DNA from: Nevskia soli
Lineage (GTDB): Bacteria; Pseudomonadota; Gammaproteobacteria; Nevskiales; Nevskiaceae
DNA length: 32,758 bases
Assembly: GCA_026224805.1 (NCBI GenBank)
Contig: JAMFRN010000248.1
Coordinates: 1 to 32,758, forward strand
Direction: 5' to 3'
The notes beneath the pieces were generated by a model. It was not told the DNA's origin. It saw nothing but the letters and a program-made list of their open reading frames with translations, and ran no database searches. The position numbers were made by a program, and so were the translations under genes. This document shows positions 11,960-31,963 of this stretch, one piece after another; positions within the stretch are counted from its first letter, which is position 1, and each line of letters begins with the position of its first letter.

Positions 11960-11972
11960 TTTCTCTCCCTCC

Positions 11973-12074
11973 GCTCGTCCCGAGTGGCGTTGCGCAGCAA
12001 CGTTGTATCGAGAGACCAGCACCGCGCGTGGCCCCTCGATACGTTCCCTTCGGGAACACTCGGGGCAAACGGAC
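11973..12074 (+). repeat. Cloverleaf-like palindromic repeat, copy 1
   Basis: The outer arms CCCGAGTG (11979-11986) and CACTCGGG (12057-12064) enclose three hairpins. The first is GTTGC-GCA-GCAAC. The second is a longer imperfect one with GTATCGAG/CTCGATAC. The third is GTTCCC-TTC-GGGAAC. The same architecture, with the same GCA and TTC loops, recurs at 27896-28011. It lies between fadE30 and ipdF. It is not a tRNA: there is no T-loop motif and the stems are too long. Confidence 0.8.
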
Positions 12075-12113
12075 AGGGGTTATTGGTGCGAGTAATTTTC
12101 ATGGATATTTCAT

Positions 12114-13301
12114 TCAAACCGCCGGGCGCGGTTCGCGCGGCATGTCCAGCCCACGTTCCGCGATCAGGTTGAGCTGGATTTCGTTGGTGCCGGCATAGAT
12201 GGTGTCGGCGCGCGAAAAGAAGAATAGTTGCTGCAGGGGGCGGATGCGCGGATCGTCGGAGATCGCATCGCCAGCCGGTCCCAGCACGTCCATCGCCAGC
12301 TTGCCCAGTTCGCGGTGCCAGTTGGACCAGTAGTACTTGTAGATCAGCGCTTCGCGCTTCAGCCCCGGCCGTTCGCCTCCTGACAACATGCGCAGGGCGT
12401 TGTAGCGCATCACGCGCAGGCCGCACCAAGCCTGGGCGATGCGCTGGCGGATCTGTGGGTTGGCGGAGGCGCCGTTGGCCTGCGCCGCCTTGACCACCAG
12501 GTCGAACTCATAGGCGAAATGCATCTGCTGGCCCAGGGTCGATACGCCGCGCTCGAACTCGAGCAGGCCCATCGCCACCTTCCAGCCTTCGCCCGGCTTG
12601 CCGACCAGGTGACCGGATTCGGCCACGGCGCCGTCGAAGAATACTTCGTTGAACTCGGATCCGCCGCTCATCTGGCGGATCGGCTGGATGCGCACGTTGG
12701 ACTGGCTCAGCGGCAGCAGCAGGAAGCTGAGGCCGTTGCGGCTCTTGCTGCCCGGCTCGCTGCGCGCCAGCACGAAGATCCATTCCGATTCGTGCGCCAG
12801 CGAGGTCCACACTTTCTGGCCCTGCACGCGCCAGCTGCCGTCCGCTTCCTGCCAGCATTTGGTCTGGACGTTGGCAAGGTCGGAGCCGGCGCCCGGCTCG
12901 GAATAGCCCTGCGCCCAGAATTCGGTGCCGGCAACGATGCCGGGCAGGAAGCGCCGCTTTTGCATCTCGCTGCCGAAGGCGATCAGGGTCGGCCCGATCA
13001 GGCCTTCGCCGATATGACCCATGCGGCCGGGGCCGCCGGCGCGTGCATATTCCTCGTGGAAGATCACCTGCTGCTCGATGCTGAGGCCGCGCCCGCCCGC
13101 TTCGGCGGGCCAGCCGACGCAAGTCCAGCGGCCGGCGGCGAGCTCGCGCTCCCATTCCTTGCGCAGGGCCGGATCGGCTTCCTCGTCGCCGGGGCCGCCG
13201 CGATGCAGCAGGCTGGCAAAGCGGCCTTTCAGATGCCGGCGCATCCAGTCGGCCACTTCGGCGCGGAAGGCTTCGTCGGTGGGGCTGGGCTGGAGATTCA
13301 T
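12114..13301 (-). CDS. fadE30: FadE30-like acyl-CoA dehydrogenase (large subunit)
   Basis: A 395-residue flavoenzyme that introduces a double bond into an acyl-CoA. I start it at ATG 13301, because the sequence becomes family-like there (MNLQPSPTDEAFRAEVADWM) and it is 8 bp after the stop of the preceding gene. Visible motifs are WAQGYSEPGAGSDL (129-142), KVWTSLAH (163-170), and FERG with Glu250, which aligns with the isovaleryl-CoA-dehydrogenase-type catalytic base. The MCAD-type Glu position in IYAGTNEIQ is Ala. The run EWERELAAGRWTCVGWP and FERGVSTLGQQ match FadE30 (Rv3560c) as I recall it, the enzyme acting on HIP-CoA. It follows a small dehydrogenase subunit lacking this Glu, so a heteromer is likely. 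Confidence 0.85.
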   Translation of the reverse strand: MNLQPSPTDEAFRAEVADWMRRHLKGRFASLLHRGGPGDEEADPALRKEWERELAAGRWTCVGWPAEAGGRGLSIEQQVIFHEEYARAGGPGRMGHIGEGLIGPTLIAFGSEMQKRRFLPGIVAGTEFWAQGYSEPGAGSDLANVQTKCWQEADGSWRVQGQKVWTSLAHESEWIFVLARSEPGSKSRNGLSFLLLPLSQSNVRIQPIRQMSGGSEFNEVFFDGAVAESGHLVGKPGEGWKVAMGLLEFERGVSTLGQQMHFAYEFDLVVKAAQANGASANPQIRQRIAQAWCGLRVMRYNALRMLSGGERPGLKREALIYKYYWSNWHRELGKLAMDVLGPAGDAISDDPRIRPLQQLFFFSRADTIYAGTNEIQLNLIAERGLDMPREPRPAV

Positions 13302-13309
13302 GGCGGAGG

Positions 13310-14446
13310 TCAGGCGATCAGCGCCTGCGCGATGCGTTCGCGCAGGCCATCGGCATTCCCCAGCCAATGACTGCTGGCCTGGGCGCGCTTGAAATAGAGC
13401 TGGGGATCGTATTCCCAGGTGAAGCCAACGCCGCCGTGCAACTGGATCGCTTCCTGTGCGCAGTAGAAATAAGTGTCCGACGCAAGGGTGCGCGCCACGG
13501 CGCATTCGAGCGCCAGCGCATCGGCGGTGGTCTTGCTGGCGGCAAGCGCGGCGGCGCCGTAGACGGCCGAGCGCGTCGCCTCGATGCGCACCATCATCTC
13601 GGCGCAGCGATGCTTCACCGCCTGAAACGAGGCGATGGCGCGGCCGAACTGCTTGCGCGCGGCGGTATAGGCCACGGTGAGGTCCAGGCACTGCTGCGCC
13701 CCGCCGAGCTGCTCGGCGGCGATGGCCAGGCGCGCCAGCGCGGCGGCGCGCGATAGGCCATCTTCGATGCGTGAGGCATCGTCGATGCGGTCTTCGGCAG
13801 GCAAGGTCACTCCGTCCAAGGTGATGCTGCTGAAACGGCGTGTTGCGTCCCAGCCTTCGAGCGCTTCGATTTTCAGGCCTGCCACTTCGCGCGGCACGGC
13901 GAACAAGGCGGCCTTGCGCTCTCCCTCCACCTGCGCGAACAGCAGCAGCCAGTCGGCGGCAGCGGCATCCGGCACGCGCGGGCAATGACCACTCAGGGTC
14001 CACACCTCACCCTTGCGCCGCGCCTGTATCTGCGCGGCGGCATCAAGCCAATCATCGGCGCCGCTGCTCAGCGGCGCCGTGGCGCAAAGATGTCCCTCGG
14101 CAATCGCGGGCAGGAAGCGGCGTAGCGCCTGCTCGTTGCCGACTTGCGTCAGCAGGTTGGCCGCCAGACAGACCGTGGAGAAATACGGCGCGCACAAAAG
14201 CTGCCGCCCCATCTGCTCCAACACCAACACCAGTTCCACCGCACCCAGACCTAGACCGCCGTGTTCCTCGGCCACCGGGATGGCGCACCAGCCCAGCTCG
14301 GAGCCGATGCGCTGCCACACGCCCGCATCGAAGCCGGTCTCGCTGGCCGATGCCGCGCGTACCGCGGCCGACCCGCTTTCGTCCGCCAGAAAGCTCTGCG
14401 CGGCGTCGCGGATCATGACCTGGTCGGCGGTGAAGGCGAAGTTCAT
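13310..14446 (-). CDS. Acyl-CoA dehydrogenase, small/non-catalytic-type subunit
   Basis: A 378-residue acyl-CoA dehydrogenase fold protein from ATG 14446. The C-terminal flavin region is recognisable: ARKQFGRAIASFQAVKHRCAEM and AIQLHGGVGFTWEYDPQLYFKRA. The segment where the FadE30-like partner has FERG reads GLSRAAALARLAIAAEQLGG, so the catalytic Glu is missing. That is the hallmark of the beta-type subunits in the alpha2beta2 steroid dehydrogenases (FadE26-27, FadE28-29). It sits 8 bp upstream of the FadE30-like gene and 15 bp after an SDR gene. It probably supplies FAD-binding residues to a heterotetramer acting on a C/D-ring CoA ester (inference). Confidence 0.85.
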   Translation of the reverse strand: MNFAFTADQVMIRDAAQSFLADESGSAAVRAASASETGFDAGVWQRIGSELGWCAIPVAEEHGGLGLGAVELVLVLEQMGRQLLCAPYFSTVCLAANLLTQVGNEQALRRFLPAIAEGHLCATAPLSSGADDWLDAAAQIQARRKGEVWTLSGHCPRVPDAAAADWLLLFAQVEGERKAALFAVPREVAGLKIEALEGWDATRRFSSITLDGVTLPAEDRIDDASRIEDGLSRAAALARLAIAAEQLGGAQQCLDLTVAYTAARKQFGRAIASFQAVKHRCAEMMVRIEATRSAVYGAAALAASKTTADALALECAVARTLASDTYFYCAQEAIQLHGGVGFTWEYDPQLYFKRAQASSHWLGNADGLRERIAQALIA

Positions 14447-14461
14447 GCGCGTGTTTCGGTC

Positions 14462-15340
14462 TCAGGTTCCGTAGACTTTCTGCGGCTTCGGCGCCTCGGC
14501 GATCAGCGACTCGACCACTTCGGTCAGCTCCGCCGGCTGCCAGCGCGCTTTCTTGTCGCGGACCTGGCCGGTACGCCAGCCATCGCCGACGGAGAGCTTG
14601 CCGCCTTCCACCTCGAACACCTTGCCGCTGACGCCAGCCGACAGCGGGCTGCACAGCCACACCACCAGCGGGGCCACATTGCCGGGATGGAAGTGATCGA
14701 ACGCCTCGCCATCCGGTTTCTTCATCACGTCGGCGAAGACCTTCTCGGTCATGCCGGTGCGGGCCGCCGGGGCGAGCGCGTTGGCGGTGATGCCGTAGCG
14801 GCCCAGTTCCGCCGCCTGCACCAGGGTCAGCGAGGCGATGCCGCCCTTGGCGGCGGCGTAGTTGCTCTGCCCGACCGAGCCTTGCAGGCCGGCACCGGAG
14901 CTGGTGTTGACGATGCGCGCATCGACTTTCTGGCCGTTCTTGACCTGGTCGCGCCAGCGGCGCACCAGGATGCTGGCCACGCAGAAATGGCCTTTCAGAT
15001 GGACGCGGATGACATCGTCCCAGTCCTGCTCGGACAGGCTGGCGAACATGCGGTCGCGCACGATGCCGGCATTGTTGACCAGACCCTGCACGTCGCCGAA
15101 GCGCGCCACGGCGCCGTCGACGATGCGCTGCGCGCCGTCCATGCTGGTGATGTCGTCGTTGCTGGCCAGGGCCTTGCCGCCGGCGGCTTCGATCTCCTTC
15201 ACTACTGCGGCCGTAGCCTCGGGACGGATGTCGTTGACGATGACGTTGGCGCCTTCGCCTGCCAGCAGCAGCGCGTACTCGCGGCCCAGGCCGCTGCCCG
15301 AGCCGGTGACGATGATGGTGCGGTTGTCGCAGATGCCCAT
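14462..15340 (-). CDS. SDR of the multifunctional-enzyme / hydroxyacyl-CoA dehydrogenase type
   Basis: A 292-residue short-chain dehydrogenase from ATG 15340, which overlaps the FadA6 stop (TGATG). Rossmann motif TGSGSGLG at 12-19, NNAG at 89-92, catalytic Ser147 or Ser148, Tyr161 and Lys165 (YAAAK). The N-terminus (TIIVTGSGSGLGREYALLLAGEGANVIVNDI, here split across residues 8-38) and the long C-terminal tail (WLCSPLSAGVSGKVFEVEGGKL, then about 40 more residues) resemble the 3-hydroxyacyl-CoA dehydrogenase unit of peroxisomal MFE-2 and mycobacterial Hsd4A/Rv3548c-type proteins. It most likely oxidises a 3-hydroxyacyl-CoA in C/D-ring or side-chain degradation. The exact step cannot be told. 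Confidence 0.85.
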   Translation of the reverse strand: MGICDNRTIIVTGSGSGLGREYALLLAGEGANVIVNDIRPEATAAVVKEIEAAGGKALASNDDITSMDGAQRIVDGAVARFGDVQGLVNNAGIVRDRMFASLSEQDWDDVIRVHLKGHFCVASILVRRWRDQVKNGQKVDARIVNTSSGAGLQGSVGQSNYAAAKGGIASLTLVQAAELGRYGITANALAPAARTGMTEKVFADVMKKPDGEAFDHFHPGNVAPLVVWLCSPLSAGVSGKVFEVEGGKLSVGDGWRTGQVRDKKARWQPAELTEVVESLIAEAPKPQKVYGT

Positions 15341-16494
15341 CAGGCCAGCCTCTCGATGATCGTCACGTTGGCGACGCCGCCGCCTTCGCACATCGTCTGC
15401 ATGCCGTAGCGCTTGTTGGTGCGTTCCAGTTCGTTGAGCAGGGTGCACATCAGCTTGGCGCCGGTAGCACCGAGCGGATGGCCCAGAGCGATGGCGCCGC
15501 CGTTGACGTTGGTCTTGGCGTGTGGGTAGCCGATCTCCTTGAACCAGGCCAGCACCACCGAAGCGAAAGCCTCGTTGATCTCAACCAGATCGATGTCCTC
15601 CAGCTTCATGCCGGACTTCTTCAGGGCATGGCGGGTGGCGGGGATCGGCGCGGTGAGCATCATGATCGGGTCGTCGCCGAGCACGCTCATGTGATGCACG
15701 CGGGCGCGCGGCTTGAGGTTGTAGCGCTTGAGGGCTTTCTCGGACACCACCAGCAGTGCGGAGGAGCCGTCGCAGGTCTGGCTGGAGACGGCGGCGGTGA
15801 GCTTGCCGCCCGGTTCCAGCGGCTCCAGCGTCGCCATCTTTTCCAGCGAGCTCTGGCGCGGTGTCTCGTCCTGCTCCAGGCCTTCGAGCGGGATGATTTC
15901 CTTGTTGAAGCGGCCTTCGGCGATGGCCTTCAGCGCGCGCTGGTGGCTCTCCAGAGAGAAGCGCTCCATGTCTTCGCGCGAGATGTTCCACTGGTCGGCG
16001 ATCTTCTGCGCGGCATAGAACTGCGATACTGGTACGTTGCCGAAGCGCGCGGTCCAGCCCTTGCTGCCGGAGAAGGGATCGCTGAAGCCCAGCGGCTTGG
16101 CGGCGATCATGGCGGAGGAAATCGGGATCTGGCTCATGGTCTGCACGCCGCCGGCGACGACCACGTCGTTGACGCCGCTCATCACCGCCTGCGCGGCGAA
16201 ATGCAGCGCCTGCTGCGAGGAGCCGCACTGGCGGTCCACGGTCACGCCCGGCACGGTCAGCGGCAGGCCGGCGGCGAGCCAGCAGGAGCGCGCGATATTG
16301 CCGGCCAGCGGGCCGATGGCGTCGAGACAGCCGAACACCACGTCGTCGTAGTCTTCCGCCGGGATGGAGGGATTGCGCTCGACCAGCGCCTTCAGCACAT
16401 GCGCGCCGAGATCGGCGCCGTGGATGTGGGCCAGCTTGCCGCGGCGCTTGCCGACGGGGCTGCGCACCGCATCGACGATATAGGCTTCTGCCAT
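15340..16494 (-). CDS. fadA6: FadA6-like thiolase
   Basis: A 384-residue thiolase whose sequence follows mycobacterial FadA6 (Rv3556c) along its length as I recall it. The N-terminus is [19 protein letters not shown], then [22 protein letters not shown] with nucleophile Cys90, and [16 protein letters not shown]. The C-terminal part has [11 protein letters not shown], His339 in [12 protein letters not shown] and Cys369 in MCEGGG. In the HIP pathway FadA6 thiolytically cleaves the open-chain product after ring C opening. The gene overlaps the SDR downstream by one base and follows the small dehydrogenase subunit by 24 bp. The assignment is among the most secure in the cluster. Confidence 0.93.
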
Positions 16495-16518
16495 GTCAGT
16501 TTCCGTTTGCTTGAATGA

Positions 16519-17574
16519 TCAGTTGAAAGTTTCGCCCGGGCCCAGCGCGGTGCCCTCGGCAAAAATGAATTGCGCCACGCGCGTCTTGTGGAAGGCGCGA
16601 TCGCCCCAGGCCGCATCGAGGGCCCAGGCGCGCTTCATGAACATCTGCAAATCGGCCTCCCAGGTGTAGCCCATGGCGCCATGCACCTGCATGCTGCGAC
16701 GCGCGGAGGCCCAGGCGGCTTCGCAGGCGGCGAGCTTGGCGTGGGAAACATGCACCGCCGCGCGCGGCCGGTTGTTAGCCAGGCAATGCGCGGCGCGGAA
16801 CACCACCGGCTTGGCGAACTCGATCTTTACCGCCACATCGGCAAGCTGGTGCTTCACCGCCTGGAACGAGCCGATCGGCTTGCCGAACTGCTTGCGCTGG
16901 GCACTGTGGTCGATGCCGAGGTCGAGCATGCGCTGCGCCAGGCCGAGCTGCTGCGCGCTCACCGCTAAGGCGGCGCGGTTGAGCACGCCCTCCCAAAGCT
17001 CGCGGCCGATGCGCGCGGGGGCGACACGGGTGGCATCGCTCGGCGTCCATTTCACCTGATACAGGCGCCGCGACATCTCGATGCTGGGATTGAACGACAG
17101 CTTGACCTGGTCGCGCTGCACCGCGTGTACCTCATCGTCATGCCACAACAGCAGCAGGTCGGCCAATTGCGCGTCGGAAACGAAGGGGTTGACCGGATGG
17201 CCGATGGCAATGCGCGCGGTGCCGTTGGCGATGCGCGGCAGCCAGGCCTTCTTCAGCGCGACGTCGCTGGGCAGGCGGGTCAGCAGCCAGGCCGCGAGAT
17301 AAGCCGTGTCCGACAGCGAATCGGGAATGGCGTAATAGCCCAGCTCCTGGTTGATCAGTACCCAGTCCAGATCGCCCAGGCCGATGCCGCCGAATTCCTC
17401 CGGCACCGACAGCGCGGTGATGCCCTGGTCGGCGAGCTTGGCGCGCAGATCCTTGGAGCGGCCGCTCTCGGTCTCCCAGATCTCGCGCAGCATTTCCGGC
17501 GCCGCCTCGACCATCAGGAATTTGCGCACCGCGTCGCGGAAGGCGACTTGTTGTTCTTCGAAAGTGAAGTCCAT
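16519..17574 (-). CDS. Acyl-CoA dehydrogenase, small/non-catalytic-type subunit
   Basis: A 351-residue acyl-CoA dehydrogenase fold protein from ATG 17574, 9 bp after the large subunit. The N-terminal helical domain (MDFTFEEQQVAFRDAVRKFL) and flavin-contact segments (AQRKQFGKPIGSFQAVKHQLADV, MQVHGAMGYTWEADLQMFMKRA) are intact. The stretch matching the catalytic-Glu helix reads GVLNRAALAVSAQQLG, without Glu. It is shorter than a typical full ACAD (about 380), as are FadE32 and FadE33 of the KstR2 regulon (about 320). With the gene upstream it probably forms a heteromeric dehydrogenase that acts late in ring C/D degradation, on an open-chain CoA ester (inference). Confidence 0.87.
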   Translation of the reverse strand: MDFTFEEQQVAFRDAVRKFLMVEAAPEMLREIWETESGRSKDLRAKLADQGITALSVPEEFGGIGLGDLDWVLINQELGYYAIPDSLSDTAYLAAWLLTRLPSDVALKKAWLPRIANGTARIAIGHPVNPFVSDAQLADLLLLWHDDEVHAVQRDQVKLSFNPSIEMSRRLYQVKWTPSDATRVAPARIGRELWEGVLNRAALAVSAQQLGLAQRMLDLGIDHSAQRKQFGKPIGSFQAVKHQLADVAVKIEFAKPVVFRAAHCLANNRPRAAVHVSHAKLAACEAAWASARRSMQVHGAMGYTWEADLQMFMKRAWALDAAWGDRAFHKTRVAQFIFAEGTALGPGETFN

Positions 17575-17583
17575 GGCTTGGCC

Positions 17584-18750
17584 TTATGACCTCGGCAGGC
17601 CGAGCATGCGCTCGGCGATGATGTTGCGCTGGATTTCGTTGGTGCCGGCGTAGATCGGCCCAGCCTGCGCGAACAGGAAGCCGTCGAGCCAGCGGCCGAT
17701 GTCGCCGGCGTCCGGCGCATGCGGCATCAGTTCGGCGCGGGCGCCGAGGATGCGCATGGCGGTTTCGTGCATCAGCAGATCCAGCTCGGACCAGAAGATC
17801 TTGTTGGTGCTGGCCTCGGCGCCGATCTGGCCACCCTTGGCCAGGCGGCAGGCGGTGCGATAGGTGGCCAGGGCATAAGCCTCGGCGCCCATCCAGCTCT
17901 GCAGCACGGCGTCGCGGATCGAGGGATCGGCGTCGATGCGGGCCTGGTGGCGCAGGTACAGGTCGACCAGCGCCTTGGCGGTCTGCTGGAAACGGCCGGG
18001 CGAACGCAGCATCAGGCCGCGCTCGAAGCCGGCGGTGGCCATCGCCACCTGCCAGCCGGCGCCCTCGTCGGCCAGACGATTGCTCACCGGCACGCGCACT
18101 TCGTCGAAGAAGATCTCGGCGAAGCCGGTCTCGCCGTTGAGCTGCTGCACCGGGCGGATGGTGATGCCCGGCAAGTTCAGCGGCAGCAGGATGAAGGTGA
18201 GGCCGTGATGGCGCACGGAATTGGGGTCGGTGCGGAACAGGCCGAACAACCAATCAGCCCACACCGCGCGGGTCGACCAGGTCTTCTGGCCGCTGATGAC
18301 GTAGTGATCGCCGTCGCGGACGGCCTTGCAGCGGATCGCCGCCATGTCGGAGCCGGCGCCGGGCTCGGACCAGCCCTGTGCCCAGATGTCCTCGCCCGTG
18401 GCCATGCGCGGCAGGAAGCGCTGCTTCTGCTCTTCGGTGCCGTATTCCATCAAGGTCGGCGCCAGCAGGAAGATGCCGTTCTGGTTGACGCGCAGTGGCG
18501 CGCTCGCGCGCCAGTATTCTTCCTCGAAGATCAGCCACTCGATCAGGTCGCAGCCGCGGCCGCCGACTTCCTTGGGCCAGGTCACCGCGCTCCAGTGGCC
18601 GCCGGCGAGCTTGCCTTCCCAGGCGCGATGCTCGGCGAAACCCTCCTCGGTGTCGAAGCTGCGCAGCGGCTGCTTCGGTACGTTCTGCTCCAGCCAGGCG
18701 CGCACTTCCTTGCGGAAGCGCTGCTGGCGTTCAGTGTATTCCAGTCTCAT
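17584..18750 (-). CDS. Acyl-CoA dehydrogenase, large/catalytic subunit (FadE31-like)
   Basis: A 388-residue acyl-CoA dehydrogenase starting at ATG 18750, which overlaps the echA20 stop (ATGA). Motifs: WAQGWSEPGAGSDM (123-136), KTWSTRAVWADW (156-167), and GFERG with Glu243 at the isovaleryl-CoA-dehydrogenase-type catalytic position. The C-terminal IYAGTNEIQRNIIAERMLG has Ala where medium-chain enzymes carry their Glu. Full length and gene position beside a short partner are like FadE31 next to FadE32/33 in the mycobacterial HIP cluster. Its own role is probably dehydrogenation of an acyl-CoA formed after ring opening; the substrate is inferred only. Confidence 0.87.
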   Translation of the reverse strand: MRLEYTERQQRFRKEVRAWLEQNVPKQPLRSFDTEEGFAEHRAWEGKLAGGHWSAVTWPKEVGGRGCDLIEWLIFEEEYWRASAPLRVNQNGIFLLAPTLMEYGTEEQKQRFLPRMATGEDIWAQGWSEPGAGSDMAAIRCKAVRDGDHYVISGQKTWSTRAVWADWLFGLFRTDPNSVRHHGLTFILLPLNLPGITIRPVQQLNGETGFAEIFFDEVRVPVSNRLADEGAGWQVAMATAGFERGLMLRSPGRFQQTAKALVDLYLRHQARIDADPSIRDAVLQSWMGAEAYALATYRTACRLAKGGQIGAEASTNKIFWSELDLLMHETAMRILGARAELMPHAPDAGDIGRWLDGFLFAQAGPIYAGTNEIQRNIIAERMLGLPRS

Positions 18751-20644: not shown

Positions 20645-20651
20645 GTGGATT

Positions 20652-21833
20652 TCAGCGCTTCACGATCACGGAGGAGCCGTGACCAAACAGGCCCTGGTTG
20701 GCGGTAATGCCCACCTTGGCACCCTGCACCTGGCGCGAGCCGGACTGATCACGCAACTGCCAGGTCAGCTCGCACACCTGTGCCAGGGCCTGCGCCGGGA
20801 CGGCTTCGCCGAAGCAGGCCAGGCCGCCGGAGGGGTTCACCGGCAGGCGTCCGCCGATGCGGGTGACGCCTTCGCGCACCAGCTTAGCCGCATCGCCGCG
20901 CGCGCAGAATTGCAGGTCTTCCATCCAATCCAGTTCCAGCGCGGTGGACAGGTCGTAGACCTCGGCCAGGCTGACGTCTTCCGGCCCGATGCCGGCTTCC
21001 TCGTAGGCCTTGCGCGGCAGCGCGGCACGGAAGCGCAGCGGCTCGGCGGCCACGGCAGAGTCGGTGGCGAGGTCGGGCATTTCCACCGTATCGGTGGCGA
21101 AGGTCGGCGTCACGGTGGAGATGGCGGCGACGCGCGGCGCATTCTGCTTGCCGATACGGCGGGCGTAGTCGAGGCTGGAAACGATCAGGGCGGCGGCGCC
21201 ATCGGAAGTGGCGCAGATGTCCATCAGGCGCAGCGGGTCGGCCACCATGGCCGAGGCCGCAACGTCCTGCGCGCTGAATTTCTTGCGGTAGCGCGCGTTG
21301 GGATTATCGAAGCCGTGTTCGGCGTTCTTCACCTTGACCAGGGCGAAATCGTCCTGGGTATCGCCGTACAGCGCCATGCGGCGGCGCGCGTAGAGGGCGA
21401 AATAAGTGGGATTGGTGATGCCGACACGAAAGCGCACCCAATCCGGATCGTCCGGGCGCTCGCCTTTCTGCGGCGCCAGGAACCCCTTGGGGGTGGTGTC
21501 GGCGCCGATGACCAGGGCCACCTCGCACTCGCCGGAGAGGATCTTGGAACGAGCCGCCGCCAGCGCCTGCGAACCGGAGGCGCAGGCCGCATACGAAGTA
21601 TTGACCTGAGCACCCTGCCAGCCGAGGGCCTGGGCGAAGGTGGCGCCGGCAACATAGCCCGGATAGCCATTGCGCATGGTGGCCGCGCCGGAGACGAACT
21701 GCACGTCGCGCCAGTTGACGCCGGCATCGGCCAGGGCGGCACGCGCCGCGACCACGCCGTATTCGACGAAATTCCTGCCCCACTTGCCCCAGGGGTGCAT
21801 GCCGACGCCGAGGATGGCGATGTCCTTGCTCAT
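20652..21833 (-). CDS. Thiolase-fold lipid-transfer protein (SCP-x/Ltp type)
   Basis: A 393-residue thiolase-superfamily protein from ATG 21833, overlapping the DUF35 stop (ATGA). The N-terminal half (DIAILGVGMHPWGKWGR, VNTSYAACASGSQAL with Cys84) is SCP-x-like. In the C-terminal half the usual NPSGG...GHPLGATG reads NPSGGLACFGEAVPAQALAQ, so the catalytic GHP histidine is missing, and the last motif is NQGLFGHGSS. Loss of GHP together with an adjacent DUF35 gene recalls the Ltp2/ChsH2 retro-aldolase and the BbsAB enzyme, in which a thiolase fold and a DUF35 protein act together. It may cleave a carbon-carbon bond by retro-aldol or act as a specialised thiolase. The gene is not part of the mycobacterial ipd set I know. 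Confidence 0.82.
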   Translation of the reverse strand: MSKDIAILGVGMHPWGKWGRNFVEYGVVAARAALADAGVNWRDVQFVSGAATMRNGYPGYVAGATFAQALGWQGAQVNTSYAACASGSQALAAARSKILSGECEVALVIGADTTPKGFLAPQKGERPDDPDWVRFRVGITNPTYFALYARRRMALYGDTQDDFALVKVKNAEHGFDNPNARYRKKFSAQDVAASAMVADPLRLMDICATSDGAAALIVSSLDYARRIGKQNAPRVAAISTVTPTFATDTVEMPDLATDSAVAAEPLRFRAALPRKAYEEAGIGPEDVSLAEVYDLSTALELDWMEDLQFCARGDAAKLVREGVTRIGGRLPVNPSGGLACFGEAVPAQALAQVCELTWQLRDQSGSRQVQGAKVGITANQGLFGHGSSVIVKR

Positions 21834-22264
21834 CGCGCGTCTCCGGCCAGAGGCTTCCACTTCCAGCTCAGCTTGCTGTCGTCCAGCGCTTCCAACACCA
21901 GTTCCACTTCCATGCCGACATGCAGCGCCTCCACGCCGACACCGCTGGCGACCTGGCCGAGCACGATCATGCGCTCCCGCTCCAGTTCCACCGCGGCGAT
22001 GCTGTAGGGCACGAAGGGATCATTGGAGATGTAAGGCTCGGGCGGCTTGTAGGCGGCATTGGTGTAGGACCAGATGCGGCCCTTGCGCGACAACTGCACT
22101 TCCTCGAAGGCCTCGCCGGCGCAGTCCGGATGGCGGCAGAACTTGATCTGCTTGGGGAAGTAGTAGGTGCCGCAGGCGCTGCAGCGCGCGCCGAGCAGGT
22201 GCGGCTCGCGCTGGTCGAGCGTGAACCAGCCTTCCAGCACGGGTGTCTTGGGCGGGGCGTCCAT
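21830..22264 (-). CDS. DUF35 OB-fold zinc-ribbon protein
   Basis: A 144-residue protein from ATG 22264, which overlaps the ipdB stop by one base. A rubredoxin-like zinc ribbon (CSACGTYYFPKQIKFC, then HPDC, about residues 28-48) precedes an OB fold (GRIWSYTNAAYKPP..., VPYSIAAVELERERMIVLGQV, VGMEVELVLE). DUF35 proteins are structural or CoA-positioning partners of thiolase-fold enzymes: they bridge acetoacetyl-CoA thiolase and HMG-CoA synthase in archaea and form the Ltp2-ChsH2 aldolase in steroid degradation. It overlaps the Ltp-type gene by four bases, so the pair is almost certainly one complex. Confidence 0.9.
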   Translation of the reverse strand: MDAPPKTPVLEGWFTLDQREPHLLGARCSACGTYYFPKQIKFCRHPDCAGEAFEEVQLSRKGRIWSYTNAAYKPPEPYISNDPFVPYSIAAVELERERMIVLGQVASGVGVEALHVGMEVELVLEALDDSKLSWKWKPLAGDAR

Positions 22265-23061
22265 CAGGCGGCTTTCAGCGCCGGCGGATTGTTCTTCAGC
22301 ACCGCGCCGCGAAAGTTGTGCGGATCGAGGCGCTGGATGATGGCCAGTTGCTCGGCCGTAGGCAGCGGCGTCTCGCCCAGGTTATCTGCCTTGAGCAGGG
22401 GGAAGCCGGTGGCGGCCTGCACCTGCTCGAAGCTGACGCCAGGATGCAGCGACTTGACGCGGATCGCGTGCTGCGGACCGCCGAAATCCAGCACGCACAG
22501 GTCGGTGACGATCAGGCGCAGGTCGAGATAGTCCTGCTTCATGCCCTCGCCCCAGCGCTTGGGGTTGTAGCCCACGCCGGAGACCATGTCCACTTCCCCG
22601 GCGACGAACACGCGCGGGCCGTGGTTGGGCACGAATAGCGAATTGATGTGGTTGATGCTGTTACCCGGCAGGCCGCGCACGCCCAGCATGGCCGACTTCG
22701 GCTTGGCGTAGTCACCGATCACCGACAGGTTGGTCTGGCCCCAGCGGTCGATCTGGGTGGGCCCGATCATGACGTGGCGCTTGCCGCCCCAGACGCATTC
22801 GAACACGCGGTCAAAGGACATATAGCCTTCGTACTTCGGCTTGTAGTCGCCGCGCGGTCCCAGCGGCACCGGCTCGGACACCAGGAAGGCCTCGCTGTCG
22901 GTCATCAGTAATTCGGGCGAGTGGGTCAGCTTGGCCAGCGAGGCGCCCAGGCGCGGGATGGTGGTGATGCCAGAGGCCAGCACCTCGCCGTTGTCGCGCC
23001 AGGTTTCGGAAGCGGCGACGATCAGCAGCTCGGCCAGAGTCACTTGTGTGGTTTCGGTCAT
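22264..23061 (-). CDS. ipdB: IpdB-like CoA-transferase-fold subunit
   Basis: A 265-residue protein. I start it at ATG 23061 (MTETTQVTLAELLIVAASETW), one base after the ipdA stop; a longer in-frame start would overlap ipdA and lacks family resemblance. It shows the class I CoA-transferase beta-subunit pattern: LASGITTIPRLGASLAKL, WGGKRHVMIGPTQIDRWGQTNLSVIG, GLPGNSINHINSLF, and VTDLCVLDFG...VKSLHPGVSFEQVQAATGFPL. With IpdA it forms the hydrolase that opens ring C of the HIP-derived CoA ester (COCHEA-CoA in mycobacteria), rather than a true CoA transferase. Order ipdA-ipdB matches other steroid degraders. Confidence 0.92.
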   Translation of the reverse strand: MTETTQVTLAELLIVAASETWRDNGEVLASGITTIPRLGASLAKLTHSPELLMTDSEAFLVSEPVPLGPRGDYKPKYEGYMSFDRVFECVWGGKRHVMIGPTQIDRWGQTNLSVIGDYAKPKSAMLGVRGLPGNSINHINSLFVPNHGPRVFVAGEVDMVSGVGYNPKRWGEGMKQDYLDLRLIVTDLCVLDFGGPQHAIRVKSLHPGVSFEQVQAATGFPLLKADNLGETPLPTAEQLAIIQRLDPHNFRGAVLKNNPPALKAA

Positions 23062-23062
23062 G

Positions 23063-23944
23063 TCAGAACACCGGCAGCTTGAGCTTGCCGACACGTTCGG
23101 CCCCACCCACTTTCGTCAGGTACTCGGCTTCGCCGCCGTTGACAAACTCGTCCAGGTATTTCTGCCAGCCGTTTTCCTCCGTGGCGGAGGCGTTGTAGCG
23201 CTTGAAGTGATCCATGTCCCAGCCGTAGTTCGGGCCGAAATAGGTCGGATGGGCGCCGCAGGGCGCATGCACCACGCCGGTGACGAGATAGCGCTCGAAC
23301 GGATTGAGCTTGGCCGTGTCGGCATCGAGCGCCAGCTTGTCGTGCAGCACTTCGGTGCTGACATAGCAGCGATCCGCCGCGCGGGCGAACAGATGATCGA
23401 AGAAGGTATCGGCACCGCGCACCAGGGTATTGCCGAGGCGGTCGGACTCGTTGACATGCAGCAGCGCGGCATCGAGTTTCAGCGCCGGCATGGCGACGTA
23501 GACCTCGCCATCGGCATACGGCGAGGTGATAGTCTTGATCTGCGGGTGCTTCGCCAGCACGTCGGTGGCCAGGCCAACCCGTGTCGGCAGAAAGGATAGG
23601 CGCATGCCGGCGGCGCGCAGGCCCCACTCGAACATGCCCTCGTCCAGCTCCATTACTTCGATGGCGCCGCTCTCGCGCGCCTTGCGGTAGTACGGTTCCA
23701 GCGGGATCGCATCGAGGGTGACGAAGGGGAAAATCAGTTTCTTCACCTTGCCGGCGGCGCAGAGCATGCCGACATCGGGGCCGCCGTAGGACACCACGGT
23801 CAGGTCCTTGAGACCGGAACGCAGCATTTCGCGCACCAGGGCCATCGGCTTGCGTCGCGGGCCCCAGCCGCCGATGCCGACGGTCATGCCGGAGCGCAGC
23901 TGCGCTACCGCAGCCGTTGCCGTCAATTCCTTGTTGAGTGCCAT
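23063..23944 (-). CDS. ipdA: IpdA-like CoA-transferase-fold subunit
   Basis: A 293-residue protein, the same length as the mycobacterial IpdA (about 292), from ATG 23944. It has the class I CoA-transferase alpha fold: the glycine-rich SGMTVGIGGWGPRRKPMALVREML at 18-41, LTVVSYGGPDVGMLCAAGKV at 48-67, and an acidic IEVMELDEGMFEWGLRAA segment at 95-112. That segment includes Glu102 and Glu106, one of which should be the conserved glutamate IpdAB uses. The end of the protein (NYGWDMDHFKRYN...WQKYLDEFVNGGEAEYL) is IpdA-like. IpdAB opens the last ring of the steroid nucleus by hydrolysis without transferring CoA. It is 16 bp downstream of the dioxygenase gene. Confidence 0.93.
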   Translation of the reverse strand: MALNKELTATAAVAQLRSGMTVGIGGWGPRRKPMALVREMLRSGLKDLTVVSYGGPDVGMLCAAGKVKKLIFPFVTLDAIPLEPYYRKARESGAIEVMELDEGMFEWGLRAAGMRLSFLPTRVGLATDVLAKHPQIKTITSPYADGEVYVAMPALKLDAALLHVNESDRLGNTLVRGADTFFDHLFARAADRCYVSTEVLHDKLALDADTAKLNPFERYLVTGVVHAPCGAHPTYFGPNYGWDMDHFKRYNASATEENGWQKYLDEFVNGGEAEYLTKVGGAERVGKLKLPVF

Positions 23945-23960
23945 TCGTGTGCTTTTATGG

Positions 23961-24857
23961 TTATTTGAAGCCGACAGAGAAATCGTGGCCCCACAGGCTC
24001 ACGGCGGTGGATTCGAAGGCCTGGTGCTTGTCCCAGTCCACCATCAGCCCGCCGTAGCCGTATTCCAGCGCGAAGTTGGACGGGGTGTTCATGTAGAACG
24101 AGGTCATGCGGTCGTTGACGTGACGGCCCAGCGTGGCCATCAGCTTGACGCCCTGCTTCTGCATGCGGTCGTAGGCGCGGCCGACTTCGTCCATGCTCGG
24201 CACTTCGATCATGATGTGCACGCAGCCGCTCGGCATCGCCATCTCGAACAGCGCCAGGCTGTGATGGCGCGGGTTGGCGCAGTGGGTGAAATAGATGCGC
24301 TTAACCGGCTCGTTCGGGTCCGGGGTGAACTTGTGGCGGAAGATGTCGGACAGGTTGAAGCCGAGCACGTCGCGGAACAGTGCCCAGGTGGCATCGAACT
24401 CCACCGCCGGCAGCACGGTGTGGCCGACGCCATGTTCGCCGGTGAGAAAGCCTTCCACACCGATCGGCGAGACGAAGCGCGCGAAATCGGTGGTGAAGCC
24501 CCAGGACACTTCGTGCAGGTTGCCAGAGGGATCGGTGAAGGACAGCAGGTCCTGCACGCAGCGGGCCTTGCGCTGTGCCTCGCTGCCTTTGGTGGTCTTT
24601 ACACCGGCTTTTCCCAGCGCGGCGGCGACGGCGTCGAAGGCGGTCTCGTTGGCCACTTCCCAGCCGGAGGCGAGGTAGCGGTCTTCCGGGCCCTTGACGA
24701 TGGCGATGCGGTACTTGCGTTCGTCCAGTTTCAGGTACAGGCCGCCTTCCGGGGCCTCGGAGGTGGCGACACCCAGAACCTCCTCGCCGAAGTGCTTCCA
24801 CTTGGAAACGTCGGTGCTTTGCGCCACGACATAGGCCAGTGCGTCGATCTTCACCAT
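23961..24857 (-). CDS. hsaC: Extradiol dioxygenase, HsaC/TesB (BphC) type
   Basis: A 298-residue two-domain type I extradiol dioxygenase from ATG 24857 (HsaC is 300); an upstream ATG at 24875 is possible, but neither has a strong ribosome site. The iron ligands are in the right places: His146 (GVGH), His214 (CVHIMIEV) and Glu265 (ALEYG). The second-shell residues HH (198-199 in NPRHHSLAL), His246 (LGRHVND) and Tyr255 (SFYM) are also present. The C-terminus ESTAVSLWGHDFSVG is the HsaC/TesB signature end. It meta-cleaves the aromatised A ring of 3,4-DHSA. It heads the minus-strand operon and is followed 16 bp on by ipdA. Its usual partners (hsaA, hsaB, hsaD) are not in the window. Confidence 0.92.
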   Translation of the reverse strand: MVKIDALAYVVAQSTDVSKWKHFGEEVLGVATSEAPEGGLYLKLDERKYRIAIVKGPEDRYLASGWEVANETAFDAVAAALGKAGVKTTKGSEAQRKARCVQDLLSFTDPSGNLHEVSWGFTTDFARFVSPIGVEGFLTGEHGVGHTVLPAVEFDATWALFRDVLGFNLSDIFRHKFTPDPNEPVKRIYFTHCANPRHHSLALFEMAMPSGCVHIMIEVPSMDEVGRAYDRMQKQGVKLMATLGRHVNDRMTSFYMNTPSNFALEYGYGGLMVDWDKHQAFESTAVSLWGHDFSVGFK

Positions 24858-25173
24858 GGGGTGTCCGCCGTACATTGATTGGATTGAGGTTGGATGACCG
24901 CAATTATCAATACCCGGCGGGGGGCAGTGCTTCACCCAATTAGACGAGACCTTGGAGCGGAAATGCTCTATATGGCTAGTCTCATTGGATGATGAATCGC
25001 CGAGGCGAATGGAAATAATGCTCTAGTCTCTGCCCTGTCCCCCGTTTTGGCCTTTCCAGGGCCAAAATCCGCCGACATTGCGCCGTGGCAGCAGAACATG
25101 TCGCCCGGCGCCGATTTTGGCGCCGCGCAACGCAACAATACCGATTTTCACGAATTCCAACGAGGAGCAGCAC
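24858..25173. promoter_or_regulatory. Divergent promoter/leader region of the two catabolic operons
   Basis: About 316 bp between the divergent dioxygenase and SDR starts. It holds the inverted repeat listed separately (24936-24988). It also holds two hairpins in the plus-strand leader: TTTTGGCC/GGCCAAAA at 25045-25067 and GGCGCC...GGCGCC at 25107-25124. I could not choose convincing -35/-10 boxes for either direction. No open frame here looks like a gene. Confidence 0.7.
24936..24988. promoter_or_regulatory. Candidate operator: inverted repeat in the divergent promoter
   Basis: CCAATTAGACGAGAC at 24936-24950 faces GGCTAGTCTCATTGG at 24974-24988. The complement of the second arm is CCAATGAGACTAGCC, matching the first in 12 of 15 positions with CCAAT-AGAC-AG conserved. 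The 23-nt centre contains a small palindrome, GAGC-GGAAAT-GCTC. Each arm could be one binding site of a dimeric repressor, or the pair could bind a looping tetramer. It does not match the KstR2 consensus as I recall it. It is the only clear symmetric element between the two operons. Confidence 0.55.
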
Positions 25174-25941
25174 ATGGGCAGGGTGCAGGACAAGGTGGCC
25201 ATCATCACCGGCGCCGCCAGCGGCGTGGGCAAGGAAGACGCAATCCTGCTGGCCAAGGAAGGCGCCCGGGTGGTGCTGACCGACCTCAACGAGGACGCCG
25301 GCCGCGCCGTCGCCGCCGCCATCGGCGAGCAGGCGCTGTTCGTGCGCCAGGACATCAGCTCCGAGGACGACTGGAAAGCGGTGATCCAGGCCACCGAGGA
25401 CAAGTTCGGCGGGGTCGACATCCTGGTCAACAATGCCGGCATCCTGCAATACGGCACCATCGAGGACACCACGCTGGAGCAGTGGCAGAAAGTGCAGCGG
25501 GTCAACTCCGACGGCTACTTCCTCGGCTGCAAGTACGGCGTGCTGGCGATGAAGAAGCGCAAGAGCGGCTCCATCGTCAACATGTCCTCCATCGCCGCCA
25601 TCTCCGGCATGTCGGCGTTCTGCGCCTATAGCGCCTCCAAGGGCGCGGTGGCCGCGCTGACCCGCAATGTCGCCATTCACTGCCGGCGCTTCGACCTCAA
25701 GATCCGCTGCAACTCAATCCATCCCGACGGCATCAAGACACCGATGGTGGCCAACCTGCATTCCACCACCAAGCCGGGACAGATGCCCGAGGTGAAGGAT
25801 CTCAAGCAAGCCATGTCGCGCATGGCCGATCCGAAGGACATCGCCAACCTGGTGCTGTTCCTCGCTTCCGAGGAATCGCGCTTCATCAACGGCGCCGAAA
25901 TGCACATCGACAATGGCTGGCGCATCTGGGCGGAGAGATAG
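25174..25941 (+). CDS. Short-chain dehydrogenase (hydroxysteroid-dehydrogenase-like)
   Basis: A 255-residue classical SDR from ATG 25174, preceded by CGAGGAG; the longer open frame upstream reads through the leader and is non-coding. TGAASGVG at 12-19, NNAG at 86-89, Ser139, Tyr152 and Lys156 (YSASK). The layout with NSIHPDGIKTPM and a C-terminal FINGAEMHIDNGW is like the 3alpha/20beta- and 7alpha-hydroxysteroid dehydrogenase group. It starts the plus-strand operon divergent from the HsaC-like gene, which suggests a steroid or ring-hydroxyl oxidation. SDR sequence alone does not fix the position or stereochemistry. Confidence 0.88.
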   Translation: MGRVQDKVAIITGAASGVGKEDAILLAKEGARVVLTDLNEDAGRAVAAAIGEQALFVRQDISSEDDWKAVIQATEDKFGGVDILVNNAGILQYGTIEDTTLEQWQKVQRVNSDGYFLGCKYGVLAMKKRKSGSIVNMSSIAAISGMSAFCAYSASKGAVAALTRNVAIHCRRFDLKIRCNSIHPDGIKTPMVANLHSTTKPGQMPEVKDLKQAMSRMADPKDIANLVLFLASEESRFINGAEMHIDNGWRIWAER

Positions 25942-25968
25942 TGTCGTCATGTTCATCCTGAACAAGAC

Positions 25969-25986
25969 GGCGCCATCCTTGGCGCC
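25969..25986. repeat. GGCGCC hairpin between SDR and ferredoxin genes
   Basis: GGCGCC-ATCCTT-GGCGCC, a 6-bp stem with a 6-nt loop, in the 75-bp spacer before the ferredoxin. The same GGCGCC stem with a different loop occurs in the operon leader at 25107-25124. It may be a weak attenuator or simply GC-rich chance. Confidence 0.4.
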
Positions 25987-26016
25987 GACTGTCAAAACAA
26001 GCAGAGTGGTCTCCTC

Positions 26017-26316
26017 GTGACTGTTGCCGTACATGATGGAACCGTCACCATCGAGGCCGAACTCGATGGCGTCAACCACAGCGTCAACGCCTATCCCGGC
26101 CAGATCCTGCTGGAGGCGCTGGAAGATGCGGGGCTGTCGCCGCCCTACTCCTGCCGCGCCGGCGCCTGCGCCTCCTGCATCTGCAAGCTGGAGGAAGGCG
26201 AAGTGGAGATGCTGGAGAACCATGTGCTCGACCAGGGAGAGCTGGACGAACGCTGGATTCTCGGCTGCCAATCCGTACCGAAGACGCCGCGGATTCGCGT
26301 GCGCTACGTGAAATGA
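26017..26316 (+). CDS. [2Fe-2S] ferredoxin, plant/KshB type
   Basis: A 99-residue electron carrier with a GTG start at 26017; the ribosome site is weak. The cluster ligands are Cys46, Cys51, Cys54 and Cys84 in YSCRAGACASC...LGCQS, the C-x4-C-x2-C...C pattern of plant-type ferredoxins. Cys56 is extra and probably not a ligand. The segment KLEEGEVEML and the end IRVRY resemble the ferredoxin domain of KshB, the reductase of 3-ketosteroid 9alpha-hydroxylase, but here it stands alone with no flavin/NAD domain. It overlaps fadD3 by four bases. It probably feeds electrons to a Rieske oxygenase or a P450 encoded elsewhere. Confidence 0.92.
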   Translation: MTVAVHDGTVTIEAELDGVNHSVNAYPGQILLEALEDAGLSPPYSCRAGACASCICKLEEGEVEMLENHVLDQGELDERWILGCQSVPKTPRIRVRYVK

Positions 26317-27878
26317 CCCCGATGAGCCATACCGTTCCACAAGCATTCGCCGCGGCCGTACAGCGCTATGCAAGCCGCATCGCCCTGGTTGGCGAGGACG
26401 GCCAGGTGCTGAGCTTCGAGCAGCTCGACCGCCTGCGCGTCGACGCGGCCCGGGCCCTGCTGGCCCTGGGCGTGCAGCCGGGCGAGCGCGTCGGCCTGTG
26501 GGGCCAGAACTGCGTCGAGTGGGTGGTCGCCGCGCTGGCCGTGCACAGCGTCGGCGCCGCGGTGGTGCCGGTGAACACGCGCATGCGCGGCAGCGAGGTG
26601 GCTTATGTGCTGGAGCGCAGCGGCGCGCGCCTGCTGTTCAGCGCCGGCCGCTTCCTCGACCAGTACTATCCGGAACTGCTGGCGCCGCACCGCCCCAAGA
26701 GCCTGCACACCATCGTGGTGATGCGCGATGCCGCCGCCGGTGACCTGGACTGGCGGGGCTTCCTGGCCCGCGCGGAGGGCATACCGGAGAACGCGGTCGC
26801 GGAACGCGAGCGCGCGGTGACGCCGGACAGCCTGATGGATGTGATCTTCACCTCCGGCACCACCGGCCTGCCCAAAGGGGTGATGACCTCGCATGGGCAG
26901 AACCTGCGCACAGTAGCGGAGTGGTCGCGCCACATGGGCCTGGTGCCGGAAGACCGCTACCTGGTGGTCAACCCGTTTTTCCACACCTTCGGCTACAAGT
27001 TCGGCTGGCTCGCCGGCCTGCTGGCCGGGGCCATGGTGCTGCCGCACGCGGTGTTCGACGCCGCCGCCCTAATGGCGCGGGTGGCGCACGAGCGCGTCTC
27101 GGTGCTGCCCGGCCCGCCGACCCTGTTCATCAGCATCCTCAACGATCCGCGGCGCGAGGCCGCGGACCTGTCCAGCTTGCGCGCCACCATCACCGGGGCC
27201 GCCGCGGTCGCCCCCGCCCTGATTGAGCGCATCCGCGCCGAACTGGGCTTCAAGGTGGTGCTGACCGGCTATGGCCTGACGGAATCCTGCGGCGTGGTGT
27301 CGCTATGCGGCGCCGCGGACGACGCTGAAACCGTGGCCCTGACCAGTGGCAAGCCGCTGCCGGGCACCGAGGTGCGCTGCATCGACGGTGACGGCAAGGC
27401 GGTGTCGCCCGGCGAAGCCGGCGAGATCGTGGTGCGCGGCTACAACGTCATGCAGGGTTACCTCGACGATGCCAGGGCCACCGCCGAGACCATCGACGCC
27501 GAAGGCTGGATGCATACCGGCGACATCGGCATCCTCGATGCGCGCGGCTACCTGCGCATCACCGATCGCCTCAAGGACATGTATATCGCCGGCGGCTTCA
27601 ATTGCTACCCGGCGGAGATCGAGCGCATCATCGCCGGCCACCCGGCCGTGGCCCAGGTGGCCGTGGTCGGCGTGCCGGACGAGCGTCTGGGCGAGGTCGG
27701 CAAGGCCTTCGTGGTGCTGCGGCCGCAGGCACAGCTCGGCGACAGGGAGCTAATCGGCTGGTGTCGCGACAATATGGCCAATTACAAGGTGCCGCGCTTC
27801 GTCGAAATGGTGGGCAGCCTGCCGACCAATGCGGCGGGCAAGGTGCTCAAGTTCGAATTGCGTAAGGCGGCTGGATGA
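26313..27878 (+). CDS. fadD3: FadD3-like HIP-CoA ligase
   Basis: A 521-residue ANL-superfamily acyl-CoA synthetase that adenylates a carboxylate and transfers it to CoA. The start is ATG 26313, overlapping the ferredoxin stop (ATGA); ATG 26322 (MSHTV) is an alternative. Motifs: A3 loop FTSGTTGLPKG (179-189), GYGLTE, HTGDIG, the hinge RITDRLKDMYIAGGFNCYPAEIE, and the C-terminal catalytic Lys510 in NAAGKVLK. The HSVGAAVVPVNTR segment and length fit FadD3 (about 500), which activates the C/D-ring propionate HIP. The assignment to HIP rests mainly on the surrounding ipd genes. It is the only CoA ligase in the window, so it is the natural entry point for the whole minus-strand set. Confidence 0.9.
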   Translation: MTPMSHTVPQAFAAAVQRYASRIALVGEDGQVLSFEQLDRLRVDAARALLALGVQPGERVGLWGQNCVEWVVAALAVHSVGAAVVPVNTRMRGSEVAYVLERSGARLLFSAGRFLDQYYPELLAPHRPKSLHTIVVMRDAAAGDLDWRGFLARAEGIPENAVAERERAVTPDSLMDVIFTSGTTGLPKGVMTSHGQNLRTVAEWSRHMGLVPEDRYLVVNPFFHTFGYKFGWLAGLLAGAMVLPHAVFDAAALMARVAHERVSVLPGPPTLFISILNDPRREAADLSSLRATITGAAAVAPALIERIRAELGFKVVLTGYGLTESCGVVSLCGAADDAETVALTSGKPLPGTEVRCIDGDGKAVSPGEAGEIVVRGYNVMQGYLDDARATAETIDAEGWMHTGDIGILDARGYLRITDRLKDMYIAGGFNCYPAEIERIIAGHPAVAQVAVVGVPDERLGEVGKAFVVLRPQAQLGDRELIGWCRDNMANYKVPRFVEMVGSLPTNAAGKVLKFELRKAAG

Positions 27879-27895
27879 GACACGAATTCATTCCC

Positions 27896-28011
27896 AAGGT
27901 CCATTCGCCCCGAGTGCGTTGCGCAGCAACGCGTATCGAGGGGCCAGCACCAACGGTGACGCTGGCCCCTCGATACGTCCGCTTCGCGGACACTCGGGGC
28001 GAACGGACCTT
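27896..28011 (+). repeat. Cloverleaf-like palindromic repeat, copy 2
   Basis: Outer arms at 27896-27916 and 27991-28011 are complementary over 21 bp with one mismatch. They enclose three perfect hairpins: CGTTGC-GCA-GCAACG (27917-27931), a 17-bp stem beginning CGTATCGAGGGG (27932-27948 with 27961-27977, 12-nt loop), and GTCCGC-TTC-GCGGAC (27977-27991). The whole element is a four-way junction. It shares architecture and loops with 11973-12074. It lies between fadD3 and the next SDR and may stabilise or terminate the upstream mRNA. Confidence 0.88.
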
Positions 28012-31861: not shown

Positions 31862-31884
31862 GGCCAGACTCCGCTAGTTGGTTT

Positions 31885-31952: not shown

Positions 31953-31963
31953 AGGGGGATATT

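Follow-up and report, generated by a model that had tools for sequence, protein, structure and literature searches.

The question raised by this locus is whether two cloverleaf-like sequences, which differ in their stems while keeping them paired, are held in place by selection on their structure or are two insertions of one repeat. The window, i.e., the whole stretch of 32,758 nucleotides (nt) analyzed here, covers positions 1 to 32,758 of the forward strand of contig JAMFRN010000248.1 from Nevskia soli (assembly GCA_026224805.1), and the two elements lie at 11973-12074 (copy A) and 27896-28011 (copy B). We consider it probable that each cloverleaf is an inverted pair of a repetitive extragenic palindrome (REP)-type unit, comparable to the doublets known as REPINs (REP doublets forming hairpins) or bacterial interspersed mosaic elements, and that it is a non-autonomous element recognized as a single-stranded DNA hairpin. 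The N. soli genome is 84% complete and divided into 267 contigs, and what follows on RNA and mobility is predicted from sequence.

The sequences of both copies agree with their original description, including the GCA and TTC loops. When we reread the sequence, the reported difference in stem 3 was also present (GTTCCC/GGGAAC in copy A versus GTCCGC/GCGGAC in copy B), and the proposed four-way junction was confirmed: the minimum-free-energy DNA fold is a closed one for either strand of either copy. The DNA fold of copy A has z = -3.8/-3.9, with 0/200 shuffles folding as well on the plus strand and 1/200 on the minus strand, and that of copy B has z = -12.9/-12.4, with 0/200 on either strand. 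The RNA folds of the two elements are likewise four-way junctions (z -7.0 for A and -13.0 for B). The copies share 83% identity over the aligned ~100 nt, and the central arm of copy A is imperfect, with GAGAGACC opposite GGCCCC.

A palindromic repeat and its inverted pairs

DNA searches of the N. soli genome returned further copies, many of them covering just one half of an element. Thirty-seven single units from this genome were aligned; their RNAalifold consensus, an imperfect hairpin, served as the basis of the covariance model R1. Given this single-unit input, the building step could not have chosen the cloverleaf. The unit is a palindrome of 46-50 nt with the layout CCGTTC-G-NNNN-GAG-T-hairpin-TATC-GA-NNNN-C. 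The original prediction had proposed a covariance-model search and had named few or no other copies in the genome as the result that would speak against it. The search returned 44 units (R1, E <= 0.001, the E-values being rough), so that the repeat is a short multi-copy palindrome, as REPs are.

These 44 units comprise 28 singles and 8 doublets (16 units), and all 8 doublets are inverted, with the CCGTTC ends pointing outward and gaps of 0-15 nt, which is the arrangement of REPINs. In copy A, the first unit (11971..12020, plus strand; R1 54.2 bits, E 2.2e-8) carries a CGTTGC-type inner hairpin with the GCA loop, and the second (12027..12072, minus strand; 63.8 bits, E 1.5e-10) carries the GTTCCC/GGGAAC hairpin, whose loop reads GAA on its own strand. 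In copy B, a unit with a CGTTGC-type hairpin (27901..27948, plus strand; 68.5 bits, E 1.3e-11) is followed by one with a TCCGC hairpin (27961..28006, minus strand; 72.5 bits, E 1.7e-12). The two halves of a doublet never share an inner hairpin (0/29 identical). Within the N. soli genome, the CGTTGC hairpin occurs in 7/16 doublet units and in 1/28 singles (Fisher p = 0.0019), a p-value that is exploratory because the class was chosen after looking.

The sequence signature is constant outside the variable stems. The CCGTTC tag is exact in 35/44 units and has at most one mismatch in 42/44, the GAG...TATCGA core is exact in 39/44, and CCA follows the unit in 21/44. The consensus and alignment contain neither a GTAG nor a CGTC tag, nor the combination of a CGTC, TGTC or CCTC tag with AT first stem pairs that marks CGTC REPs. 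Between the variable lower stem (G-NNNN against NNNN-C) and the variable upper stem, the nearly invariant GAG opposite CGA forms a kink that the energy model draws as a 2-nt bulge; GA opposite GA inside a stem can presumably form tandem G-A mismatches. Folded by itself, the left unit of copy A (L001:1512-1561) took another structure, so the family hairpin is not predicted for every unit. A GC-GNA-GC apex is found in 33 of the 43 parsable N. soli units and in 110 of the 162 readable ones among 168 distinct units from all sampled genomes. GCGAAGC and other GNA-looped, G-C-closed DNA mini-hairpins are described as exceptionally stable to heat and nucleases in the part of the cited article used here (PMC4686876). 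Because the apex matches these mini-hairpins, the unit may be read as single-stranded DNA, a likeness that is suggestive and no proof.

We also counted positions relative to genes, as the original prediction had recommended. Using a simple gene caller based on codon usage, with the window as its training set, we could place 30 of 36 N. soli sites: 15 between tandem genes, 8 between convergent and 1 between divergent genes, 2 inside a called open reading frame and 4 at contig edges. Thus, 23 of the 26 sites with two callable neighbors are tandem or convergent, and the repeat is intergenic in the manner of REPs, which lie chiefly between tandem and convergent genes according to the sections of Di Nocera et al. 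(2013, PMC3733652) consulted. Taken on its sequence, the family is a REP/REPIN-type repeat with a signature of its own, outside the GTAG and CGTC tags.

The distribution of the repeat is patchy. Of 58 family genomes, 13 carry it, N. soli included (R1, E <= 1e-5), and we did not see it in 273 other sampled genomes of the class (1/274, the N. soli genome itself), in a survey that scored at most 22 candidates per genome under stricter filters, gave 22 of the 44 N. soli units and may thus lose weak or rare copies. Two relatives, G058 and G063, show recent multi-copy spread, and G058 contains a tandem array of six alternating doublets.

Covariation and the state of orthologous sites

The original prediction took the paired changes to mean that the structure is, or was, maintained. 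Covariation across copies is indeed real. In the 37 N. soli units, cells changed on both sides of a pair numbered 49 against 14.1 in shuffles, 7/14 pairs changed on both sides, and 96.5% of cells pair; further pair types showed no excess (16 against 15.2). In 133 distinct units from N. soli and its relatives, both-side-changed cells numbered 245 against 60.2 in shuffles, with 9/14 pairs involved and 94.8% of cells paired; this alignment was fitted to the model, retains 150/158 matches and counts sequences, not events. Sliding the partners by 1-3 columns abolished the signal in both sets. The outermost pair is weak, being unpaired in 45/133 sequences.

What covaries is the single hairpin rather than the cloverleaf. 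In a cloverleaf, each arm of the left unit needs its pairing partner in the right unit, and as a conserved structure the cloverleaf was rejected: where the halves differ, pairing within units holds in 107/132 cells versus 47/132 between units (29 doublets, several of them from the same arrays). Taking one doublet per locus (21 loci) gave 75/90 versus 35/90 cells, and the 8 N. soli doublets showed a smaller contrast of 24/30 versus 15/30. Against shuffled partners at the 21 loci, pairing between units was 0.738 compared with a mean of 0.766, with 1848/2000 shuffles at or above the observed value, and pairing within units was 0.919 compared with 0.772, a value reached by 0/2000 shuffles.

We then come to the sites themselves. 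The two genes flanking site B are adjacent in 7 of 17 same-genus genomes (G003, G005, G006, G008, G012, G014 and G017), and by eye the repeat is absent there in 7/7. It is also absent, by eye, from site A in the same seven genomes, which hold both flanks; G012 is apparently identical to genome G041 (L094), since coordinates and sequence agree, so it was counted once and its site A was read as G041. The nearest genome, G006 (91% identity), is rich in the repeat (48 matches) yet element-free at site B, and its gap at site A measures only ~14 nt. Stenotrophobium rhamnosiphilum does not carry the repeat at site A; its gap B (L095 ~6550-6680) holds a different inverted palindrome, GTAGGAGC-type / GTAGGAGCG-type, as if two REP families had used one gap independently.

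Covariation in homologous loci, whose lack was to count against a maintained structure, gave a mixed picture. Five pairs of N. soli and G006 units with shared gene flanks were aligned, too few to decide on maintenance at the level of the site. One pair, L018/L333, showed little change and one wobble. In L022/L327, the two units occupy equivalent places behind the same gene; one lower-arm pair is compensated, and the inner hairpins are paired in both but have nothing in common, a pattern that could reflect compensated change, conversion or independent insertion. The units of L008/L041 and of L352/L339 do not align, and the remaining pair, L025/L035, is weighed below. On these comparisons, the repeat turns over quickly.

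Because both sites are element-free in seven genomes of the genus, we did not take the compensating changes as a sign of selection at the sites. The differences between copies A and B instead separate independent insertions of a family whose copies had to be foldable when spreading. Thus, the observed paired changes stand as evidence for a hairpin family; their extension to a cloverleaf, or to maintenance at these two sites, found no support.

Alternative explanations

Several observations weigh against the reading of the two elements as mobile inverted pairs. Singles outnumber doublets in N. soli (28 to 8), unlike classical REPINs, in which doublets predominate, and all 35 units examined out of the 48 found in G006 are single. 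For some singles, a second unit may have decayed beyond what R1 recognizes, for example in a 92-nt match at C70:2622-2713. Of 50 neighboring pairs within 120 nt at all sampled loci, 29 point outward, 18 inward and 3 are tandem; the inward pairs may include some that lie between the doublets of arrays. At the window sites, the spacers under comparison also differ outside the element, so that neither a target duplication nor an exact insertion junction is definable. The L025/L035 units, clearly at the same site and upstream of a gene that we take to be mutM-like (its frame begins MPELPEVETIR), show one compensated pair (C-G versus T-A) and one uncompensated mismatch in each copy, so that maintenance at individual sites may still play a part. 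The recent copies in G063 and G058 lie inside larger elements, and the unit may therefore travel as cargo instead of moving by itself; many single N. soli and G006 units sit in mosaic repeats of ~170-500 nt that are ~70-83% alike between the two genomes. Finally, Pfam family PF01797, which covers the REP-associated tyrosine transposases (RAYTs), has no match in the 84% of the N. soli genome available, and none of 12 inspected YafM-type RAYTs from seven genomes has a CCGTTC unit in its 300-350 nt flanks (by eye).

The carriers make it possible, if somewhat doubtful, that the palindromes are cargo or relics that spread inside other mobile elements, such as miniature inverted-repeat transposable elements (MITEs) derived from insertion sequences (IS), GTAGGAGC-type REP elements or mosaic intergenic repeats, and today lack a mobilizing enzyme of their own. 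In G063 (L279, L280, L281 and L285), a ~194 nt element bounded by the inverted ends CTAGTCC/GGACTAG harbors a doublet and is present in four copies that are 97-99% identical; this larger carrier is the only place where we saw the inverted ends of a MITE. In G058 (L270-L274), the carrier is a repeated element of ~151 nt that has GTAGGAGC-type sequence at either end and contains one CCGTTC unit, which looks as though one REP family moved another. Mosaic flanks of ~170 nt are also common to some N. soli and G006 units. On the other hand, by eye the N. soli doublets have no flank in common beyond the units, and the differing inner hairpins speak for many founder types. At the mosaic-repeat units (L018, L023, L029 and L349 in N. 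soli; L047, L317-L320 and L333 in G006), CGTC-type palindromes and GGGAGAGGG-type repeats adjoin.

An ordinary RAYT that is merely missing from the incomplete assembly is an improbable mover. The overall architecture is the same (imperfect palindrome, inverted pairs, intergenic placement), 16% of the genome is unavailable, and PF01797 is common, matching in 30 of the 41 genomes searched, N. soli being among those searched, and in 10 of 11 repeat-bearing relatives. However, the repeat lacks the GTAG tag, and the RAYT lead of the original prediction failed where it could be followed, as no RAYT-like gene was found in the available N. soli sequence and no examined one is bounded by the CCGTTC repeat. 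The repeat-bearing relatives gave 42 PF01797 matches, 30 of them with loci and the remaining 12 without a locus for inspection. Each of the 12 inspected proteins, which we assume to be YafM-like, has one or more GTAG-type palindromes, and never the CCGTTC repeat, in the 300-350 nt flanks (by eye). Among 13 other inspected proteins, five (L264, L243, L244, L241 and L265) have GTAGGAGC-type or degenerate forms beside them and eight have neither (by eye). An R1 scan of the 30 RAYT-like loci from 10 repeat-bearing genomes found a unit beside the gene only at L264, on one side, where GTAGGAGC-type palindromes also flank the gene. A scan of 67 RAYT-region loci gave matches in five (L264, L078, L079, L081 and L082), in none of which the repeat bounds the gene.

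A structured RNA signal has to be judged against the neighboring genes. As originally described, the elements sit between genes of two oppositely transcribed catabolic operons, A on the minus and B on the plus strand, with neighbors labeled by Pfam. On the transcribed strand, copy A follows an acyl-CoA dehydrogenase gene (12114..13301, minus strand; Acyl-CoA_dh N/M/C), whose start at 13301 comes from the simple gene caller; the open frame runs on to 14003, and the domains occupy residues 241-618 of its 629 amino acids. The next gene downstream belongs to the short-chain dehydrogenase/reductase (SDR) family (11171..11959, minus strand; PF13561/PF00106), and its start codon is 11 nt from the copy A unit. 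Copy B lies between an AMP-binding, acyl-CoA synthetase-like gene (26313..27878, plus strand; PF00501, PF13193) and an SDR-family gene (28055..28927, plus strand; PF00106). At the gathering score, Rfam gave 0 matches in the window, and consensus scans showed no terminator or promoter site at either element.

A transcribed four-way junction acting as an attenuator, riboswitch-like element or message stabilizer and kept by selection at both sites would account for the very stable RNA folds, for the location of both copies between co-directional genes and for the SDR ribosome-binding region that borders copy A and partly pairs with it in the predicted fold, but such an operon-specific signal is unlikely, and the least probable of the explanations considered, since units occur at many other loci, pairing between units shows no excess, seven relatives with the flanking genes are element-free at both sites, neither an Rfam match nor a terminator-like site was found, and transcription runs along opposite strands at A and B and meets the two half-types in opposite order.

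Other palindromes are also present in the window. A GTAG-type-looking palindrome (GGCGGGTCGCCGACCCGCCCTA) of another REP family occurs three times within 2.4 kb, at 978-1040, 2771-2833 and 3248-3310; TGTCATCCTGAGCGCAGCGAAGGATCTGGC forms a perfect inverted doublet at 31884-31953 that looks similar to TGTC-tagged REPs; and a CGTC-type palindrome (reverse complement of CGTCATTCCCGCGAAAGCGGGAATCCAG) lies at 11103-11130, in a stretch repeated at least eight times in the Stenotrophobium genome.

Proposed mobility and comparison with known systems

How might the CCGTTC unit move as a single-stranded hairpin? We infer that when a strand is exposed, e.g., during replication, the unit would fold as a DNA hairpin, and that a hairpin-reading strand-transfer enzyme would recognize the unpaired CCGTTC tag, the GA kink and the GCGNAGC apex, not the stem sequence. 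This enzyme would copy or move single units and pairs into intergenic DNA. Stem sequences could then change freely, provided that their pairing is kept. The enzyme belonging to this unit could be encoded in the missing 16% of the genome, could have been lost or could belong to another family. Once inserted, the window pairs would form very stable RNA hairpins between cistrons, probably as a side effect, and these hairpins may alter the decay of the upstream message or the access to the downstream ribosome-binding site.

It is tempting to infer selection for RNA structure from compensatory changes that separate two copies of a repeat, but such changes do not show it at the sites concerned. What moves the REPs that lack a known transposase, namely the CGTC class, is still unsolved, and the present family, with its clear covarying hairpin, unusual tag, DNA mini-hairpin apex and near-identical recent copies in relatives, makes the question of the mover testable.

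The tag and core extend beyond this family. A palindrome in G023 (L082) has the same CGTTC(G/A) tag and GAG/CGA core; 36 plasmid records match it, among them records from Moraxella, Sphingobium and Comamonas. Compared with the window family, these CGTTCG-NNNN-GAG...TCGA-NNNN palindromes have a short simple loop in place of the second, GNA-capped hairpin, and common descent is not shown. In copies on the four plasmid records that we read, the arms pair at 4/4 positions in L370, L371 and L373 and at 3/4 in L372, and adjoining copies on the Comamonas plasmid have differently compensated arms, TGGT/ACCA (by script) and TCCT/AGGA (by eye). On the Comamonas endophytica plasmid (L370 1450-1600), three CGTTC-tagged hairpins are clustered between a Ku gene and a DUF3606 gene. 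The exact doublet of the window had no plasmid match at E <= 0.05. We recognized no literature on the CCGTTC repeat among the papers listed by a motif-string search and judged on titles and abstract openings, whose matches are presumably 16S primer strings.

We would only tentatively go further and speculate on a third REP tag class beside GTAG and CGTC, defined by the CCGTTC tag, the GAG/CGA kink and variable stems and spread across alpha-, beta- and gammaproteobacteria, with the window family as its two-hairpin form. Its members would be moved as single-stranded DNA by a non-RAYT enzyme, and its doublets would be heterodimers of left- and right-type hairpins, like the unlike ends of IS200/IS605 elements.

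Among described systems, REPINs come first. They were defined in Pseudomonas fluorescens, and the doublet is said to fold as a clover in the legend of Figure S11 (Bertels and Rainey, 2011, PMC3116915). As far as the consulted parts of that paper go, the window elements share with them two inverted palindromic units, a short spacer, extragenic placement and multiple copies, and differ in that singles predominate, the halves have different inner hairpins and the examined RAYTs are not bounded by the unit.

Most REPs fall into the GTAG and CGTC tag classes, and CGTC REPs have no dedicated transposase, according to the excerpts used of Di Nocera et al. (2013, PMC3733652). Both the CGTC REPs and the present repeat are tagged palindromes for which a dedicated transposase was not found and in which dimers are common. 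Most CGTC tails fit CCA, and CCA follows 21/44 N. soli units. The present repeat differs from the CGTC REPs of that account in lacking the CGTC tag and AT first pairs and in having a longer, two-part stem with an internal kink.

Since the tests for known tags and for a RAYT failed, we place the unit in none of the classes GTAG REP, CGTC REP and RAYT-REPIN, though it is similar to bulged REPs. The E. coli TnpA-REP enzyme requires a mismatched zone and GTAG, and the sequences of the loop and upper stem matter little, as far as the consulted text of Corneloup et al. (2021, PMC8266576) describes it; we counted this need for a mismatched bulge, above stem or loop sequence, in favor of the proposed mechanism. 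Within the same partial account, our unit differs from the E. coli group 2 REP by having CCGTTC for GTAG, a GA/GA zone for AA/GC and no cognate enzyme found. What the two share is the overall plan, in which one long hairpin consists of a lower stem, then a mismatched zone that is conserved, then an upper stem whose sequence is free, and the conserved 5' motif is left unpaired.

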